From Halomonas sp. (GTDB lineage Bacteria; Pseudomonadota; Gammaproteobacteria; Pseudomonadales; Halomonadaceae), in assembly GCF_014859505.1 (NCBI RefSeq), contig NZ_JACUUD010000001.1, positions 26,110 through 90,109 of the forward strand: a DNA stretch of 64,000 nt. Direction: 5' to 3'. Of the stretch, positions 46,077 to 54,235 are shown piece by piece (position 1 is the stretch's first letter; every line of letters begins with the position of its first letter). The translations under genes and the position numbers were made by a program. The notes beneath the pieces were generated by a model, which ran no database searches, was not told the origin of the DNA, and saw only the letters and a list, made by a program, of their open reading frames with translations.

Positions 46077-47486
46077 TTGTACCTTGCCGACGCCCTCTAC
46101 CAGCTGACGCCTTCTCCTACCCTGCTGCTGCTGATCATCGCTGCCATCGCACTGGTCGAATCCCTGGCGCTGGTCGGCCTGCTGGTGCCCGGAGTGGTGC
46201 TGATCACCGCCGCTGCTTCCCTGGCGGGCCACCAGGAGCTGGCGCTGCCCGCCATCATGCTGGCCGCCTTCATCGGGGCGGTCCTCGGCGACTGGGCCAG
46301 CTTCTGGCTGGGCTATACCCAGCATCAGCGGGTGACACGGCTGTGGCCGTTGTCACGCCACCCGGAATGGCTGGCCCGGGGGGCGCGCTTCTTCCAGCGC
46401 TACGGCACCCTGTCGGTCTTCTTCGGGCGTTTCGTCGGCCCGGTGCGCCCGATGGTGCCGCTGATCGCCGGCATGCTCAGGATGTCACCGCGAGCCTTCA
46501 CCTGGGCCAACCTCGCCTCGGCGGCGCTGTGGGCACCCGCCTACGTGCTTCCGGGCTATCTGCTGGGGCGCACCTGGCAGCAGCTGCTCGACATCCCCGA
46601 GGGCGCTCGGCCGCTGCTGGTGGCCATGGCCGCCATCCTGGTAGCGCTGGCGGTGGTGTTCTCCTGGCTGCGCCAGCAGGTCGGCCGTAGCGGACGGCTC
46701 TACCGGCTGCTCGCCGTCGGCGCCCGTCGCCACCCGGTGATGCGCCGGCTGTGGCTGTCACAGAGCGCCCGCTCCAGGGGCGAGGTACCCCTGGCCAGCT
46801 GGCTGCTGCTGATCCTGTCGGTGGGCGGCGTCTCGGGTTGGACGCTGATGGTGATGCACCACGGTGCCGATGGCCCGCTGGTGATGGATGCGCGCCTGAA
46901 CGCCCTCTTCGCCTACCTGGCCACCCCCTGGCTGGAGACGGCAAGCCAGGCCCTGGCGCGGGTGGGCGACACCTATGGCGTGCTGGCCCTGGTGCTGCCC
47001 TGGGGGGGCTGGCTGCTGTGGCGACGGCGCCTGGACGCCTTCGCGCACATCGCCGGCGGGCTCGGCCTGATCGCCCTGCTCAACACCTGGGGCAAGGCCT
47101 TCTTCGACCGCCCGCGCCCGGGCACGCCGGACTACCTGACCGGCTCCATGGCCTACCCCAGCGCCCACACCTCCACGGCAGTGGTGCTGGCCGGGCTCGC
47201 CGCTGCCTTCATCGCCCGGGAGCTGCCCCACCACCTGCGCCACTGGGTCTACTGGGGCGCCCTGCTGTTCGCCGTGGTCATGGCGCTGTCGCGGCTCGCG
47301 ATCGGCGTGCACTGGTTCAGCGACCTGGTGGGCGGCGCCCTGCTGGGCCTGGTGGTCTGTGCGCTGGTCCAGCTCGCCTGGCAGGCCCGACCCCGCGCCC
47401 CGCTCGCCCCCTGCCCCTGGGCGTGGCTGGGCGTGGGGTCGCTGGCGCTGGTGGCGGCGCGCATCGCCTGGCTACCGCCGATCTAG
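46077..47486 (+). CDS. DedA - PAP2 phosphatase fusion membrane protein
   Basis: A 469-residue polytopic protein. Residues ~10-200 are a DedA/SNARE-associated domain ('FFGRFVGPVRPMVPLIAGM' with the two conserved Arg). Residues ~240-450 are a PAP2 phosphatase with 'KAFFDRPRP', 'YPSAHTS' and 'SRLAIGVHWFSDL', the three motifs complete. DedA proteins flip polyprenyl or other phospholipids, and PAP2 enzymes dephosphorylate such lipids, so a coupled undecaprenyl-phosphate or lipid function is inferred. The start is TTG 46077, with CGGAG 6 nt upstream; there is no suitable ATG. Confidence 0.88.
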   Translation: MYLADALYQLTPSPTLLLLIIAAIALVESLALVGLLVPGVVLITAAASLAGHQELALPAIMLAAFIGAVLGDWASFWLGYTQHQRVTRLWPLSRHPEWLARGARFFQRYGTLSVFFGRFVGPVRPMVPLIAGMLRMSPRAFTWANLASAALWAPAYVLPGYLLGRTWQQLLDIPEGARPLLVAMAAILVALAVVFSWLRQQVGRSGRLYRLLAVGARRHPVMRRLWLSQSARSRGEVPLASWLLLILSVGGVSGWTLMVMHHGADGPLVMDARLNALFAYLATPWLETASQALARVGDTYGVLALVLPWGGWLLWRRRLDAFAHIAGGLGLIALLNTWGKAFFDRPRPGTPDYLTGSMAYPSAHTSTAVVLAGLAAAFIARELPHHLRHWVYWGALLFAVVMALSRLAIGVHWFSDLVGGALLGLVVCALVQLAWQARPRAPLAPCPWAWLGVGSLALVAARIAWLPPI

Positions 47487-48120: not shown

Positions 48121-48746
48121 GGCTCTCCCCAGCGCGGCATCAGGTGGTGCTCGATGCCGAGCTGGTTGAGGATCCGCGCCACGATGAAGTCGACCAGGTC
48201 ATCGATGGTGGTGGGCTGATGATAGAAGCCCGGCGCCGCGGGCAGCATCACCGCGCCGAGCCGGGTGAGATTCAGCATGTGCTCCAGATGAATGGCCGAG
48301 AGGGGCGTCTCGCGCAGCACCAGCACCAGCTGGCGGCGCTCCTTGAGGGCCACATCGGCGGCGCGCTCGATCAGGTTGTTGCTGGCCCCCGTGGCCACCG
48401 CCGAGAGGGTGCCGGTGGAGCAGGGACAGATCACCATGGAAGACGGGGCCCCGGAGCCCGAGGCCACCGGGGCCATCCAGTCCTCGCGACCGAAGCAGCG
48501 GATCTGCCCGGACCGGGCGCCGCTGCGCGCGACGAGCACCTCGGCCAGCCGCTCGGGCCGCGCCGGCAGCTCGATATCGGTCTCGGTGGCGATCACCAGA
48601 TGCGCCGCCTTGGAGATCATCACCCACACCTCGCGCTCGGCGGCCACAAGCGCCTCGATCAGCCGCAGGCCGTACTGGGCGCCGGAGGCGCCGGTCAGCG
48701 CCACCGTCACCGGCGGGCCGAAGGTGCCCTGCTGCCGCTCACCCAT
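48117..48746 (-). CDS. ubiX: Flavin prenyltransferase UbiX
   Basis: A 209-residue flavoprotein that makes prenylated FMN for UbiD in ubiquinone synthesis. '[17 protein letters not shown]' (residues ~15-31) and '[24 protein letters not shown]' (core '[15 protein letters not shown]') are diagnostic; '[15 protein letters not shown]' follows. I start at ATG 48746, overlapping the end of mpl by 8 nt. The track start at 48788 is inside mpl. Confidence 0.94.
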
Positions 48747-50130
48747 GAGCCACCTCCAGCGCGGCCAGCAGCTTCTCGTGGATGCCACCGAAGCCGCCGT
48801 TGGACATCACCACGATGCGATCGTAGGGCCGCGCCTCGGCCACCAGTGCCGCCACCAGGGCATCGATGTCCTCTTCCAGATGCGCCGGCACCGGGCTCGC
48901 CGCGAGCACTGGGGCAAGCGACCAGTCCAGCCCCGAGGGCTGGTACCAGAAGGCCGCATCGGCGGCGGCCACGCAGTCCGCCAGGCGGTCGCGCAGGTTG
49001 CCCAGGCGCATGGTGTTGGAACGCGGCTCGATCACCGCCAGCAGCCGCCCCCGGGCGGTGGCGGCACGCAGCCCCACGAGGGTAGCGGCAATGGCCGTGG
49101 GGTGATGGGCGAAGTCATCGATCACCTGGATGCCGCCCACCTCGCCGCGCAGCTCCTGCCGCCGCCGCGGGGTCTCGAAACGCGCCAGGGCCGCCGCCCC
49201 CCGGGCGAGATCGACCCCGCAGGCATGCACGGCGGCCAGCGCCGCCAGGGCGTTGCGGGCGTTGTAGGCGCCGGTAAGCGGCCAGTCCACCACGGCGTCC
49301 TCGTCGATCCTGTCGCCGCCCTCCCCCTGCTGGTGGATCACCCGGAAGCGCGAGGCGTCCTCGCGCTCGAGCTCGTAGCGCCAGGGGCTCTCGGCGGCGC
49401 TGCCGAAGCGCGCCACCGGTGTCCAGGCCCCCATCGCGAGCACACGGTCGAGCGCCGGCTCGCCGTCGGCCACCAGCAGCCGTCCCCGACCAGGCACGGT
49501 GCGTACCAGATGGTGGAACTGCCGCTCGATGGCGGCGAGGTCCTCGAAGATGTCAGCGTGGTCGAACTCCAAGTTGCCCAGCACCGCAATCTCGGGGCGG
49601 TAGTGGACGAACTTGGAGCGCTTGTCGAAGAAGGCGGTGTCGTACTCATCGGCCTCCACCACGAAGGGGGCGTCATGGGCACCGAGGCGCGCCGAGAGGC
49701 CGAAGTTGCGGGGCACCCCGCCGATCAGAAAGCCCGGTGAAAGCCCCGCGGACTCCAGCAGCCAGGCGACGAGGCTCGCCGTGGTGGTCTTGCCGTGGGT
49801 GCCGGCCACGGCGATCACCCGCCGCCCGGGCAGCACCTGCTCGGCCAGCCACTGGGGGCCGGAGACGTAGGGCAGGCCCTGGTCGAGCACCGCCTCCACC
49901 TCGGGGTTGCCCCGGGAGAGCGCGTTGCCGATCACCACCAGATCGGGGCGCGGCGCGAGGTTGGCCGGGGCATAGCCCTCGCGCAGCGCGATGCCCGCCT
50001 CCTCGAGCTGGGTGCTCATGGGTGGATAGACCCCCGCATCCGAGCCGCTGACCGTATGGCCCAGTTCCCGGGCCAACAGCGCCAGGCTGCCCATGAAGGT
50101 GCCGCAGATACCGAGGATATGGACGTGCAT
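48739..50130 (-). CDS. mpl: UDP-MurNAc:L-Ala-gamma-D-Glu-meso-DAP ligase (murein recycling)
   Basis: A 463-residue Mur ligase. It opens '[22 protein letters not shown]', with the ATP-binding loop '[15 protein letters not shown]', '[10 protein letters not shown]' and '[10 protein letters not shown]', all specific to Mpl. It reattaches recycled tripeptide to UDP-MurNAc. ATG 50130 with AGGAGAG upstream is chosen instead of track 50226. It is the first gene of mpl-ubiX-lysE, all overlapping. Confidence 0.94.
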
Positions 50131-50347
50131 GCGCTCTCCTGACTGCCGGCTTGCGCCGCGGCATCCCACCGCGGCAAGGTGAGGCGAGACTAGCATGGCG
50201 CCAGGTGCCCCTCCAGCGCCCAACATGAGGCAATCAGGCCAACCAATGGCGAGGGGGCCGGATGCAGCCTCGGCCGCTTTCGGCTAGAATCCTCCGACTT
50301 TCGTCACCCATCCACGAACAGCAGCGACCAGGAGCAGGAACAGCCCC

Positions 50348-51604
50348 ATGGCCCACAATGCCTTCTACGCCCAGTCCGGCGGCGTCACCGCCGTGATCAA
50401 TGCCAGCGCCTGCGGCGTGATCGAGGCCTGCCGCCGTCACCCGGACCGGATCGGCAAGGTCTTCGCTGGCCACAACGGCATCATCGGCGCCCTCACCGAG
50501 GACCTGATCGACGTGAGCCGGGAATCCGACGAGGCGATCGCCGCGCTGCGCCACACCCCGGGCGGCGCCTTCGGCTCCTGCCGCTACAAGCTCAAGGACA
50601 TCGAGAGCCACCGCGCCCAGTACGAGCGGCTGATCGAGGTGTTCCGCGCCCACGACATCCGCTACTTCTTCTACAACGGCGGCGGCGACAGCGCCGACAC
50701 CTGCCTCAAGGTCTCCCAGCTCTCCGAGAAGCTCGGCTACCCGCTCACCGCCATCCACGTGCCCAAGACCGTGGACAACGACCTGCCGATCACCGACAAC
50801 TCCCCCGGCTTCGGTAGCGTGGCCAAGTACATCGCCACCTCCACCCTGGAGGCCTCGCTGGATATCGCCTCCATGTGCGCCACCTCCACCAAGGTGTTCG
50901 TGCTCGAGGTGATGGGCCGCCACGCCGGCTGGATCGCCGCCGCCGGGGGACTCGCCGGGCAGGGCGAGAGCGAGCCACCCCACTTGATCATCTTCCCCGA
51001 GGTAGCCTTCAACCGCGAAGCGGTGATGGCCAGGGTCGACGAAGCGGTCAAGACCTACGGCTACTGCGTGATCGTGGTGTCCGAGGGCGCCCGCTACCAG
51101 GACGGCACCTTCCTGGCCGACTCCGGCAACACCGATGCCTTCGGCCATCGACAGCTCGGCGGCGTGGCCCCGACGCTCGCCGGCATGGTCAAGCAGGACC
51201 TGGGCTACAAGTACCACTGGGCGGTGGCCGACTACCTGCAGCGCGCCGCCCGCCACCTGGCCTCCAGGACCGACGTGGAGCAGGCCTACGCGGTGGGCGA
51301 GAAGGCAGTGGAGCTGGCGCTGGCCGGCAAGAACTCGATGATGCCGGCCATCAGGCGGGTATCCGAGACCCCCTACGCCTGGACCATCGAGCCCGCCCCG
51401 CTGGCGGAGGTCGCCAATCGCGAGAAGTTCATGCCCAGGGAGTACATCCGCGAGGACGGTTTCGGTATCACCGAGGCGTGCCGCCAGTACCTGTCGCCGC
51501 TGATCCAGGGAGAGGACTTCCCGCCCTTCGAGAACGGCCTGCCCAAGGTCGCGAAGCTTGCCCTCCACCGGGTCGAGCGCAAGCTGCCGACGTTCACGAT
51601 CTAG
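50348..51604 (+). CDS. pfp: Pyrophosphate-dependent 6-phosphofructokinase
   Basis: A 418-residue PfkA-fold enzyme. The PPi type is indicated by 'VPKTVDNDLP' (Lys in place of Gly of ATP enzymes) and 'GGGDSADT' in place of GGDGS; 'GRHAGWIAAAGGLA' and 'SEGARYQDG' support the family. It interconverts fructose-6-P and fructose-1,6-bisP reversibly using PPi. Halomonads lack or make little use of ATP-PFK, so this may serve gluconeogenesis. A -10-like TAGAAT lies at 50285-50290. It is divergent from mpl, and near ppa, which uses the same pool. Confidence 0.9.
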   Translation: MAHNAFYAQSGGVTAVINASACGVIEACRRHPDRIGKVFAGHNGIIGALTEDLIDVSRESDEAIAALRHTPGGAFGSCRYKLKDIESHRAQYERLIEVFRAHDIRYFFYNGGGDSADTCLKVSQLSEKLGYPLTAIHVPKTVDNDLPITDNSPGFGSVAKYIATSTLEASLDIASMCATSTKVFVLEVMGRHAGWIAAAGGLAGQGESEPPHLIIFPEVAFNREAVMARVDEAVKTYGYCVIVVSEGARYQDGTFLADSGNTDAFGHRQLGGVAPTLAGMVKQDLGYKYHWAVADYLQRAARHLASRTDVEQAYAVGEKAVELALAGKNSMMPAIRRVSETPYAWTIEPAPLAEVANREKFMPREYIREDGFGITEACRQYLSPLIQGEDFPPFENGLPKVAKLALHRVERKLPTFTI

Positions 51605-51706: not shown

Positions 51707-53440
51707 CTACTTCAACAGCCAGGTGAGGATCAGCAACAGCAGCAGGATGCCCGCCACGCCCTGCCAGAAGTGGCCAGGGTCGCGGAAGAATCGCCGGCCG
51801 CTGGGCGGAGAGGCGTCACGGCGATCCGAGGCAAGGGGCAGACGCAGCTCGCGCCGGAACTCCGACATGCGCCGGTAGCGCAGCGAGCGCTGGGGATCCA
51901 GCGCACGCCGCAGCGCCTCGTCCAGCGCCGGCGGCACCTCGGGGTTGCGGGTCCGCGCGCTGCGATAGGCCAGCTGTTCCAGGTCGGTGTGGCTACGCAG
52001 CCGGTTGGGCGCGAGCTCGTAGGGCAGCTCCCCGGTGAGCAACCAGTAGACGGTGGAGGCGCAGGAGTACTGGTCGCTGCGCCGGCCGACCGTGTCGTCC
52101 AGGGCATACTCGGGGGCGCTGTGCTCGGTCAACCCCACCTGGCGCAACAGCTCCCGGGCTTCTCGGTGCCTGCCTCCCTCACGGGCCCGGCAGGCGCTGA
52201 GGTCAGTCAGCACCACCTGGCCGTGGCGGTCGATCATCACGTTACCGGGGTGCACCTGCTGGTGCAGGATGTCGCGGTGGTGCAGCGCCTGAATCGCCTT
52301 GCCGAGCTGGTTGGCGATATCCAGGCGCTGCATCAGGCTCGCCTGGGGATGGCGCCGGGCCCACTCGGTCAAGGTCTCCCCGTCCACATAGGCCATCAGG
52401 TAGTAGAGGTAGCGACGCGGCCGCGAGGACTCCATGATCCGCACCACGAAGGGCGACTTGACCCGTTCCACCACCCACTGCTGAAGCAGGAAATGCTCCA
52501 GGTAGACATTACGGTTGGAGAGTTCCGGGCTGGGTGCCTTCATCACCATGTCCCGCTCGGTACTAATATCGCGGACCCGATAGACCCGCGACTGGGCGGT
52601 TCGCGACAGCACCGCCTTGATCTCCAGGCCGTCCAGGCGATCCCCCGGCGAGAGCTCGGGGGGGATCGGCAGATCGCCATAGGCACGGCCTGGGTGGTCC
52701 GGCTGCTCGTCGGGCAGATCATCGATGCGCACCAGCTGGAAGCAAAACTGCTCGGCGCCGTAGCCTCGGGCCTGGGCCCGCTGCACCGCCGCCTCGGCCA
52801 GGCGATCGCAGGCGGCGTTGAGGTCACTGGCATCCTGGCGAATCAGCTGAACATACTCCGACGGCATCAGGGTGCCCAGCACCGCCTGGGTGGTGAAAAG
52901 GAAGATGTCACCCTGCTTGATGGGAAACTGGGCGTAGTCGATGTCGATGCTGCCATCCATGCCGAGCGCCCGGGAGGGATAGCGGTAGCCGCCCAGGTCG
53001 GTGACGTGGTCGCGGCTGAGCTGCTCGAACTCGGCGCCGCGCAGACGAAACACCAGGGTATCGCCAAGGTGGAACAGGTGGGCGGTGCGGCCACGGTAAA
53101 TCATGGCAGACAGCGACGAGACATAGCTGCCCTCGGTGACGCACTGGCTCTGGCTGTAGCACCAGCCGTTGAGGGCGCGCAGCACCCGGGTGGCGGAGGT
53201 CTTGACGTCCCAGTGATCCGGTGTGGAATAGTAGTCGGCCAGGAAGCCGCGCACGCTGAGATCGCCGGCCTGCTTGGCCATGGAGTTGCGCTGGGTGGAG
53301 TCGCTGATCACCGCACAGGCGCCCTTGGCATTGAGCTGCCCGATCTGGGGCAGGCGCATCGACATGGAGCTGCGGTGGTGGCGCCGGTCCGGCGCCACAA
53401 AGGCCTGGCCATAACTCAATGACAGCTGCGCAGATCCCAA
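51707..53440 (-). CDS. PP2C-like/kinase-like fusion with both active sites degenerate, membrane-anchored
   Basis: A 577-residue protein: PP2C-like domain (~1-250), Ser/Thr-kinase-like domain (~275-540) and a C-terminal membrane helix ('GILLLLLILTWLLK'). It belongs to the bacterial bifunctional phosphatase/kinase family, but catalytic residues are lost. In the phosphatase part the metal-binding motifs are replaced: 'ISDSTQRN' for ADG-type, 'FTTQAVLG' for TDGV-type, 'GAEQFCFQ' for DN-type. In the kinase part the HRD loop is 'HQQVHPGN' (Asp to Gln, Lys to His) and DFG is 'DLS'; the ATP Lys ('MVMKAPS') is kept. A signalling scaffold is inferred. The start is TTG 53440, 7 nt after AAGGAG; the track extends it to 53533. 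Confidence 0.78.
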   Translation of the reverse strand: MGSAQLSLSYGQAFVAPDRRHHRSSMSMRLPQIGQLNAKGACAVISDSTQRNSMAKQAGDLSVRGFLADYYSTPDHWDVKTSATRVLRALNGWCYSQSQCVTEGSYVSSLSAMIYRGRTAHLFHLGDTLVFRLRGAEFEQLSRDHVTDLGGYRYPSRALGMDGSIDIDYAQFPIKQGDIFLFTTQAVLGTLMPSEYVQLIRQDASDLNAACDRLAEAAVQRAQARGYGAEQFCFQLVRIDDLPDEQPDHPGRAYGDLPIPPELSPGDRLDGLEIKAVLSRTAQSRVYRVRDISTERDMVMKAPSPELSNRNVYLEHFLLQQWVVERVKSPFVVRIMESSRPRRYLYYLMAYVDGETLTEWARRHPQASLMQRLDIANQLGKAIQALHHRDILHQQVHPGNVMIDRHGQVVLTDLSACRAREGGRHREARELLRQVGLTEHSAPEYALDDTVGRRSDQYSCASTVYWLLTGELPYELAPNRLRSHTDLEQLAYRSARTRNPEVPPALDEALRRALDPQRSLRYRRMSEFRRELRLPLASDRRDASPPSGRRFFRDPGHFWQGVAGILLLLLILTWLLK

Positions 53441-53615
53441 GAGGCTTCTCCTTGACCGCCGGGTCGATCTTACTTGGGGTCGCCGGCCACCCTGGTTGGC
53501 AGCCGGCGAACCCCGCCGGGGCCCATGATACACTTCCGTCGTCTCCGCGTGGTGTCAACCAAAGCCGCAGCGCTTTCCCGGGGGTAGGCACCCAGGTCGC
53601 GACACCTATGTCGCA

Positions 53616-53645: not shown

Positions 53646-53704
53646 TCCGCAGATTTTTTCGCTCAGCGATGTGCCAAGCTGATTTCCAACCCAAGGAAGC
53701 GACG

Positions 53705-54235
53705 ATGAACTTCGACAACATCCCCGCCGGCAAGGACCTCCCCAACGACGTCTACGTGGCGATCGAGATACCGGCCAACCATGCCCCGATCAAGTACGAG
53801 ATCGACAAGGACATGGGGACCCTGCTGGTCGACCGCTTCATGGCCACGCCGATGTTCTATCCGGCCAACTACGGCTTCATCCCGCACACCCTGGCCGACG
53901 ATGGCGACGCCCTGGACGCCCTGGTGGTGACCCCCTACCCGGTCCAGCCTGGCTGCATCATCCGTGCCCGTCCGGTCGGCATCCTCAACATGACCGATGA
54001 GGCAGGCGAAGACGCCAAGCTGGTCTGCGTGCCCCACGCCAAGCTCACCAGCCTGTACGACGACGTCCAGGAAGTCACCGATCTGCCCGAACTGCTGCGC
54101 CAGCAGATCGCCCACTTCTTCGAGAACTACAAGGATCTCGAGAAGGGGAAATGGGTCAAGGTCGAGTCCTGGGAAGGCGTCGAGGCCGCCCGCAAGGCCA
54201 TCGAGAAGGCCGTGGTCGCCTACGAGAAGGCTTGA
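53705..54235 (+). CDS. ppa: Inorganic pyrophosphatase
   Basis: A 176-residue family I soluble pyrophosphatase. The metal-site signature '[11 protein letters not shown]' (about residues 66-76), 'KYEIDKDMG' and '[12 protein letters not shown]' are typical. It hydrolyses PPi and so drives biosynthesis. ATG 53705 has AAGGAAG upstream; the track start is 36 nt earlier. It is close to pfp, which needs PPi, so the two compete for substrate. Confidence 0.96.

Follow-up and report, generated by a model that had tools for sequence, protein, structure and literature searches.

The window, a stretch of 64,000 nucleotides of Halomonas sp. DNA, carries on its minus strand a gene for a predicted double pseudoenzyme in which a PP2C-like phosphatase domain is fused to a kinase domain (positions 51707-53440). 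The open reading frame, read from 53440 to 51707, begins with TTG and is uninterrupted over 577 amino acids. A Shine-Dalgarno sequence, AAGGAG (53448-53453, minus strand), lies 7 nt 5' of the TTG, and most orthologues have a Shine-Dalgarno-like purine run 5' of a TTG or GTG start. A promoter and terminator scan returned one match of each, near the level of shuffled sequence. Upstream and divergent is ppa, encoding inorganic pyrophosphatase (53669-54235, plus strand; Pfam PF00719, Pyrophosphatase); downstream and convergent is pfp, encoding phosphofructokinase (50348-51604, plus strand; Pfam PF00365, PFK), followed by the Mur-ligase family gene mpl (48739-50226, minus strand) and then ubiX. The first-pass annotation had placed an intact gene with a good Shine-Dalgarno sequence and a membrane anchor between pfp and ppa, and its coordinates and each of these features proved correct, the strand being minus.

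This gene order is largely maintained in the family. Among 40 Halomonadaceae loci, ppa is the most persistent neighbour, lying divergently within 450 bp in 38, while pfp is downstream in 31 and mpl is a neighbour in 31. Searches of the flanks with NarK and FNT queries found neither beside the pseudoenzyme gene in any of the 40. The stability of the ppa position led to its consideration as a functional partner, but this adjacency is weak evidence because the entire accB-ubiX block is likewise largely conserved; as the most persistent neighbour, ppa makes pyrophosphate/phosphate metabolism the first thing to test, and no more than that. Elsewhere in the window, adjoining the lysE-ubiX-mpl block, an open reading frame at 46077-47486 (plus strand) resembles, by eye, a DedA-type membrane protein with a PAP2 phosphatase-like part.

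The protein has three parts. Residues 5-243 form a PP2C-like domain (52712-53428, minus strand) with fold matches to 2pk0, 2j86 and 1txo (Z 24-25), residues 265-536 a kinase-fold domain (51833-52648, minus strand) with a fold match to PknB (Z 23), and residues 556-576 a hydrophobic C-terminal membrane anchor (51713-51775, minus strand), modelled as a helix over residues 555-576. A hydrophobic segment of this kind is found in 53 of 54 orthologues and also in most active relatives. The Pfam Pkinase match is above the cut-off (8.8e-25); that to PP2C_2 is below it (0.05). Forty-eight family sequences went into the AlphaFold model, whose confidence is middling (mean pLDDT 72.6, pTM 0.48) because the alignment, at 73% identity or above, is shallow. 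Compared with solved structures, and with Foldseek also run on it, the model assigns residues 3-241 to the PP2C/PPM fold (Z 25) and residues 261-536 to the protein kinase fold of PknB (Z 23), so that both folds are predicted. The fold-marker motifs quoted in the first-pass annotation are all present.

Catalytic residues of the Halomonadaceae proteins

Motif states were read in 138 Halomonadaceae sequences covering nearly all genera, with some species represented from two collections, and were compared with those of 101 relatives from the order that lie outside this clade, among them intact paralogues carried by Halomonadaceae. Four catalytic positions are replaced in all 138 family sequences and intact in all 101 relatives. 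In the PP2C domain, the motif-1 Asp at residue 24 (53369-53371, minus strand) is Ser here, the family having Ser in 137 and Ala in 1, and the Asp of the TDG motif at residue 185 (52886-52888, minus strand) is Gln here, the family having Gln in 126, Arg in 10 and His in 2. In the kinase domain, the alphaC Glu at residue 320 (52481-52483, minus strand) is Gln in 138/138, and the catalytic Asp of the HRD motif (here HQD) at residue 395 (52256-52258, minus strand) is Gln in this protein and drifts across the clade among nine different residues (Gln, Arg, Leu, Gly, Asn, Lys, His, Ala and Ser). No state intermediate between intact and dead was seen among the 101 relatives, and no orthologue with intact motifs among the 138 family sequences.

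Other residues of both centres remain. The PP2C metal ligands Asp47 (ADG) and Asp127 (GDS) are kept here and in nearly all family sequences. At the fifth motif the family varies, with Asp230 in 84/138, and the Glu of this protein is a conservative substitution. It is possible that the PP2C domain retains some metal binding through Asp47, Asp127 and often position 230. In the kinase domain, the beta3 Lys301 and the DFG Asp413 are each kept in 137/138 and the catalytic-loop Asn400 in 134/138. Hence no family member has the full complement of an active protein kinase (beta3 Lys, alphaC Glu, HRD Asp and DFG Asp) or that of an active PP2C (Asp24, Asp47, Asp185 and Asp230), and the protein is a pseudokinase by the sequence definition of at least one canonical catalytic residue lost. 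The absence of the HRD Asp from the kinase had been recognised in the first-pass annotation, whose motif list was correct in substance. It missed the change of Glu320 to Gln, and its claim that PP2C Asp residues are lost at three motifs was generous by about one: the losses at residues 24 and 185 stand, while the fifth motif has only changed to Glu and the Asp residues at 47 and 127 are kept.

Pseudokinases and pseudophosphatases are known separately. PHLPP2 and TAB1 are animal PP2C pseudophosphatases, the activity of PHLPP2 having been lost in a metazoan ancestor (PMC12002173). They resemble the Halomonadaceae protein in that the PP2C fold has been inactive since the ancestor of the clade and is retained, with part of the metal site remaining; they differ in their domain partners and kingdom, and in that the inactivity and single zinc of PHLPP2 were measured whereas the present protein is judged from its sequence (PMC12002173). 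For bacterial Ser/Thr pseudokinases, a 2025 review describes the ActPs1-3, GLW, CP1, DYD and DLHK families and makes no mention of PP2C (PMC12599244). MviN (ActPs3), EssB/YukC, GLW, CP1, DYD and DLHK all share with the present protein a kinase fold with degraded catalytic motifs (PMC12599244). In that review, GLW replaces the lysine and HRD and MviN loses all three motifs, while the Halomonadaceae protein keeps the Lys, Asn and DFG Asp (PMC12599244); with Lys301 and Asp413 present, it falls outside the GLW and ActPs3 pseudokinases as these are defined (PMC12599244). No double pseudoenzyme of this kind from bacteria was found in a search of the open-access literature, such absence being weak evidence, and none of the papers naming both Halomonas and pseudokinase was on topic as judged by title and abstract.

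Distribution, selection and origin

An orthologue is present in all 254 good Halomonadaceae genomes, spanning 24/24 genera, and in all 81 good genomes of the source genus. Named records with an orthologue include Halomonas, Billgrantia, Vreelandella, Aidingimonas and other Halomonadaceae, and the best matches outside the family have 39% identity or less. Among good assemblies, decay shows only in the complete, single-contig genome G005, in which the orthologue (G005:C1:3478494-3480225) is split by a frameshift near residue 420, reflecting either true loss or an assembly error; split matches are also found in two draft genomes, G069 and G056. The genome from which the window was taken encodes one further kinase-fold protein (L222, positions 250-2286 of G000:C34; Pkinase 3.3e-17), whose catalytic loop reads HGDIKPSN and whose C-terminal region is long; this is apparently the genome's sole other strong Ser/Thr kinase match.

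The protein is under strong purifying selection, with pairwise dN/dS of 0.035-0.165 between members of the dead clade, at or below most active pairs. The two domains differ in conservation. Among pairs with kinase identity of 0.4-0.5, the PP2C domain of the dead clade averages 0.61 identity and the kinase 0.46, in contrast to near parity in the active clades (PP2C 0.53-0.55, kinase 0.48-0.49). At 41 positions the dead clade has fixed a residue that the active clades almost never have, and 28 of these positions are in the PP2C domain. Fifteen fixed-different sites lie within 6 residues of the PP2C catalytic motifs (P = 1.2e-5), with distance taken along the sequence from the motif positions and not from 3D coordinates; there is no such enrichment at the kinase motifs. 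The fixed new residues include Arg23, Ser24, Met26, Arg51, Asn52, Gly151-Tyr152-Arg153, Pro155, Gln185, Gly189, Cys233 and Phe234, and an inserted Arg225-Gly226-Tyr227 (RGY, 225-227) is likewise fixed. The earlier proposal that the gene is retained for a non-catalytic role is thus supported by the four losses, common to all 138 orthologues, the low dN/dS and the universal presence in the family; the sensor or scaffold function that it suggested is putative.

In a 73-protein tree, a single branch with 100/100 support separates the dead sequences, read as a monophyletic clade, from all others. This tree is unrooted, as the dead clade is a long branch for which rooting with outside kinases would be unreliable. 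Intact relatives are of two main types. The type with the motif NQD follows a formate/nitrite transporter in most loci, often with nitrate/nitrite reductase genes. The second type, in which NED predominates, lies behind a NarK-like MFS transporter, and most of its loci have nirB on the far side of that transporter. These nitrate/nitrite-linked fusions are like the pseudoenzyme in length, domain order and C-terminal hydrophobic anchor, and align with it over the full length (38% identity; hhalign probability 100 over 564 columns). They differ in having every catalytic residue in 101/101 checked, in sitting with nitrate/nitrite genes, and in lacking both the RGY insertion and the pocket residues fixed in the dead clade. 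The Halomonadaceae protein thus shares the domain order and full-length homology of the nitrate-linked family but has no adjacent nitrate/nitrite transporter in the flanks searched at the 40 loci.

Four active relatives outside the Halomonadaceae, on the second branch of the tree (L074, L075, L078 and L088), have mpl downstream on the same strand as in Halomonadaceae, and two of them also have ubiX. The simplest reading of this shared gene order is that the dead gene occupies the former site of an active nitrate-linked gene, the transporter side having been replaced by ppa. Given the nitrate/nitrite transporters beside the active relatives and the mpl(-ubiX) flank in these four, the dead protein probably descends from an active, nitrate-linked kinase/phosphatase; its descent from the NarK-linked branch in particular rests on gene order, since the tree is unrooted. 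In many genomes of the order, an intact fusion lies directly behind a formate/nitrite transporter (L055-L057, L061-L072 and others). It seems likely that the intact transporter-linked fusions, of both the formate/nitrite and the NarK type, regulate nitrate or nitrite uptake; no paper describing a nitrate-linked kinase-PP2C fusion was found. In one member of the Halomonadaceae, a lone PP2C-like part matching residues 6-243 at 33% identity adjoins an intact kinase-PP2C paralogue, L056 (G160:C1:413484-417807).

A putative non-catalytic signalling protein

Because both enzymes have lost catalytic residues and yet remain under strong selection, the protein would most likely work by binding and not by catalysis, and we infer that enzymatic activity has been lost. 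It is rather probable that an active, nitrate-linked ancestor lost both centres in the ancestor of the Halomonadaceae and was kept as a tail-anchored, non-catalytic signalling protein with a rebuilt PP2C site. The ancestor would have resembled the membrane-anchored Ser/Thr kinase-PP2C phosphatases now tied to nitrate/nitrite transporters; after the loss of both catalytic centres in the common ancestor of the family, the protein would have been kept as a signalling component on the cytoplasmic face of the inner membrane, anchored there by its tail. A receptor or scaffold is the best explanation for a cytoplasmic protein that is tail-anchored, has a conserved pocket and lacks any plausible means of two-metal catalysis. 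The fixed changes at the PP2C motifs, set against the free HRD-Asp position, point to a former PP2C active site rebuilt into a new, strongly conserved putative binding site, which may bind a ligand, and to a kinase domain relieved of phosphotransfer. That domain still has its nucleotide- and metal-holding Lys, Asn and Asp and may bind nucleotide, but phosphate transfer by the normal route would be impossible; it is probably an allosteric or scaffold module, with output by protein contact. With arginines newly placed at the former metal site, the putative pocket ligand may be an anion or a phosphoprotein.

A kinase fold lacking canonical residues need not be without chemistry of its own: some such proteins, including SelO and SidJ, are active or carry out other reactions, and AMPylators and glutamylases occur among bacterial kinase-fold proteins that lack the HRD Asp (PMC12599244). 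The near-universal Lys301, Asn400 and Asp413 (134-137 of 138) would suit a new nucleotide-dependent reaction, such as AMP transfer as in SelO, which would make the protein an enzyme after all; we consider this unlikely, as the kinase domain is the faster evolving of the two and shows no enrichment of fixed changes at its catalytic motifs, and the HRD-Asp site is not fixed to any new residue. A slow but genuine kinase or phosphatase with merely unusual motifs is less credible still. Asp47 and Asp127 do remain, as does Asp230 in many members, but two PP2C Asp residues and both the alphaC Glu and HRD Asp are gone from every sequence, and in the PP2C relative PHLPP2 an incomplete metal site accompanies measured inactivity (PMC12002173).

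As a decoy or allosteric partner, the protein might instead regulate either an active paralogous kinase/phosphatase or some other kinase of the cell. Regulation of active relatives is common among pseudoenzymes, and the window's genome does have the one other kinase-fold protein with its HGD motif. However, that genome has neither an active paralogue of the fusion nor a PP2C_2 match, which sets aside a partner of the former kind there, and an intact paralogue, about 35% identical, occurs in only 12 of 90 genomes of the genus whereas the dead protein occurs in nearly all, so the latter cannot generally depend on the paralogue. Such a regulatory role is improbable. That the gene is a decaying relic or a product of sequence error is the least credible of these accounts: the G005 frameshift and the split draft matches speak for it, but the frame is open, and universal retention, low dN/dS and the family-wide pattern of motif loss rule out both local decay and sequencing error as an account of the whole family.

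The favoured account, of a retained, tail-anchored signalling protein, can be extended, speculatively and with a good deal more doubt than belief, to a kinase and phosphatase pair that died together in the family ancestor and became a fixed membrane receptor. Its arginine-bearing former PP2C pocket would accept a new anionic ligand or phosphoprotein, the pseudokinase would report nucleotide state, and the output would bear on central phosphate/pyrophosphate metabolism (ppa) or the cell wall (mpl).

What appears to be new is a bacterial fusion protein dead in both of its partners and fixed across a whole family, no earlier report having been found. Automatic annotation may well label it an active kinase or phosphatase. 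The active relatives and the dead locus, joined by a common flank, offer a matched before-and-after view of an enzyme becoming a non-catalytic signalling protein. The dead phosphatase, seemingly the most expendable part, is the more conserved domain and points to a site worth testing, and since the carriers are culturable salt-loving bacteria used in biotechnology, deletion and binding tests would be practical.
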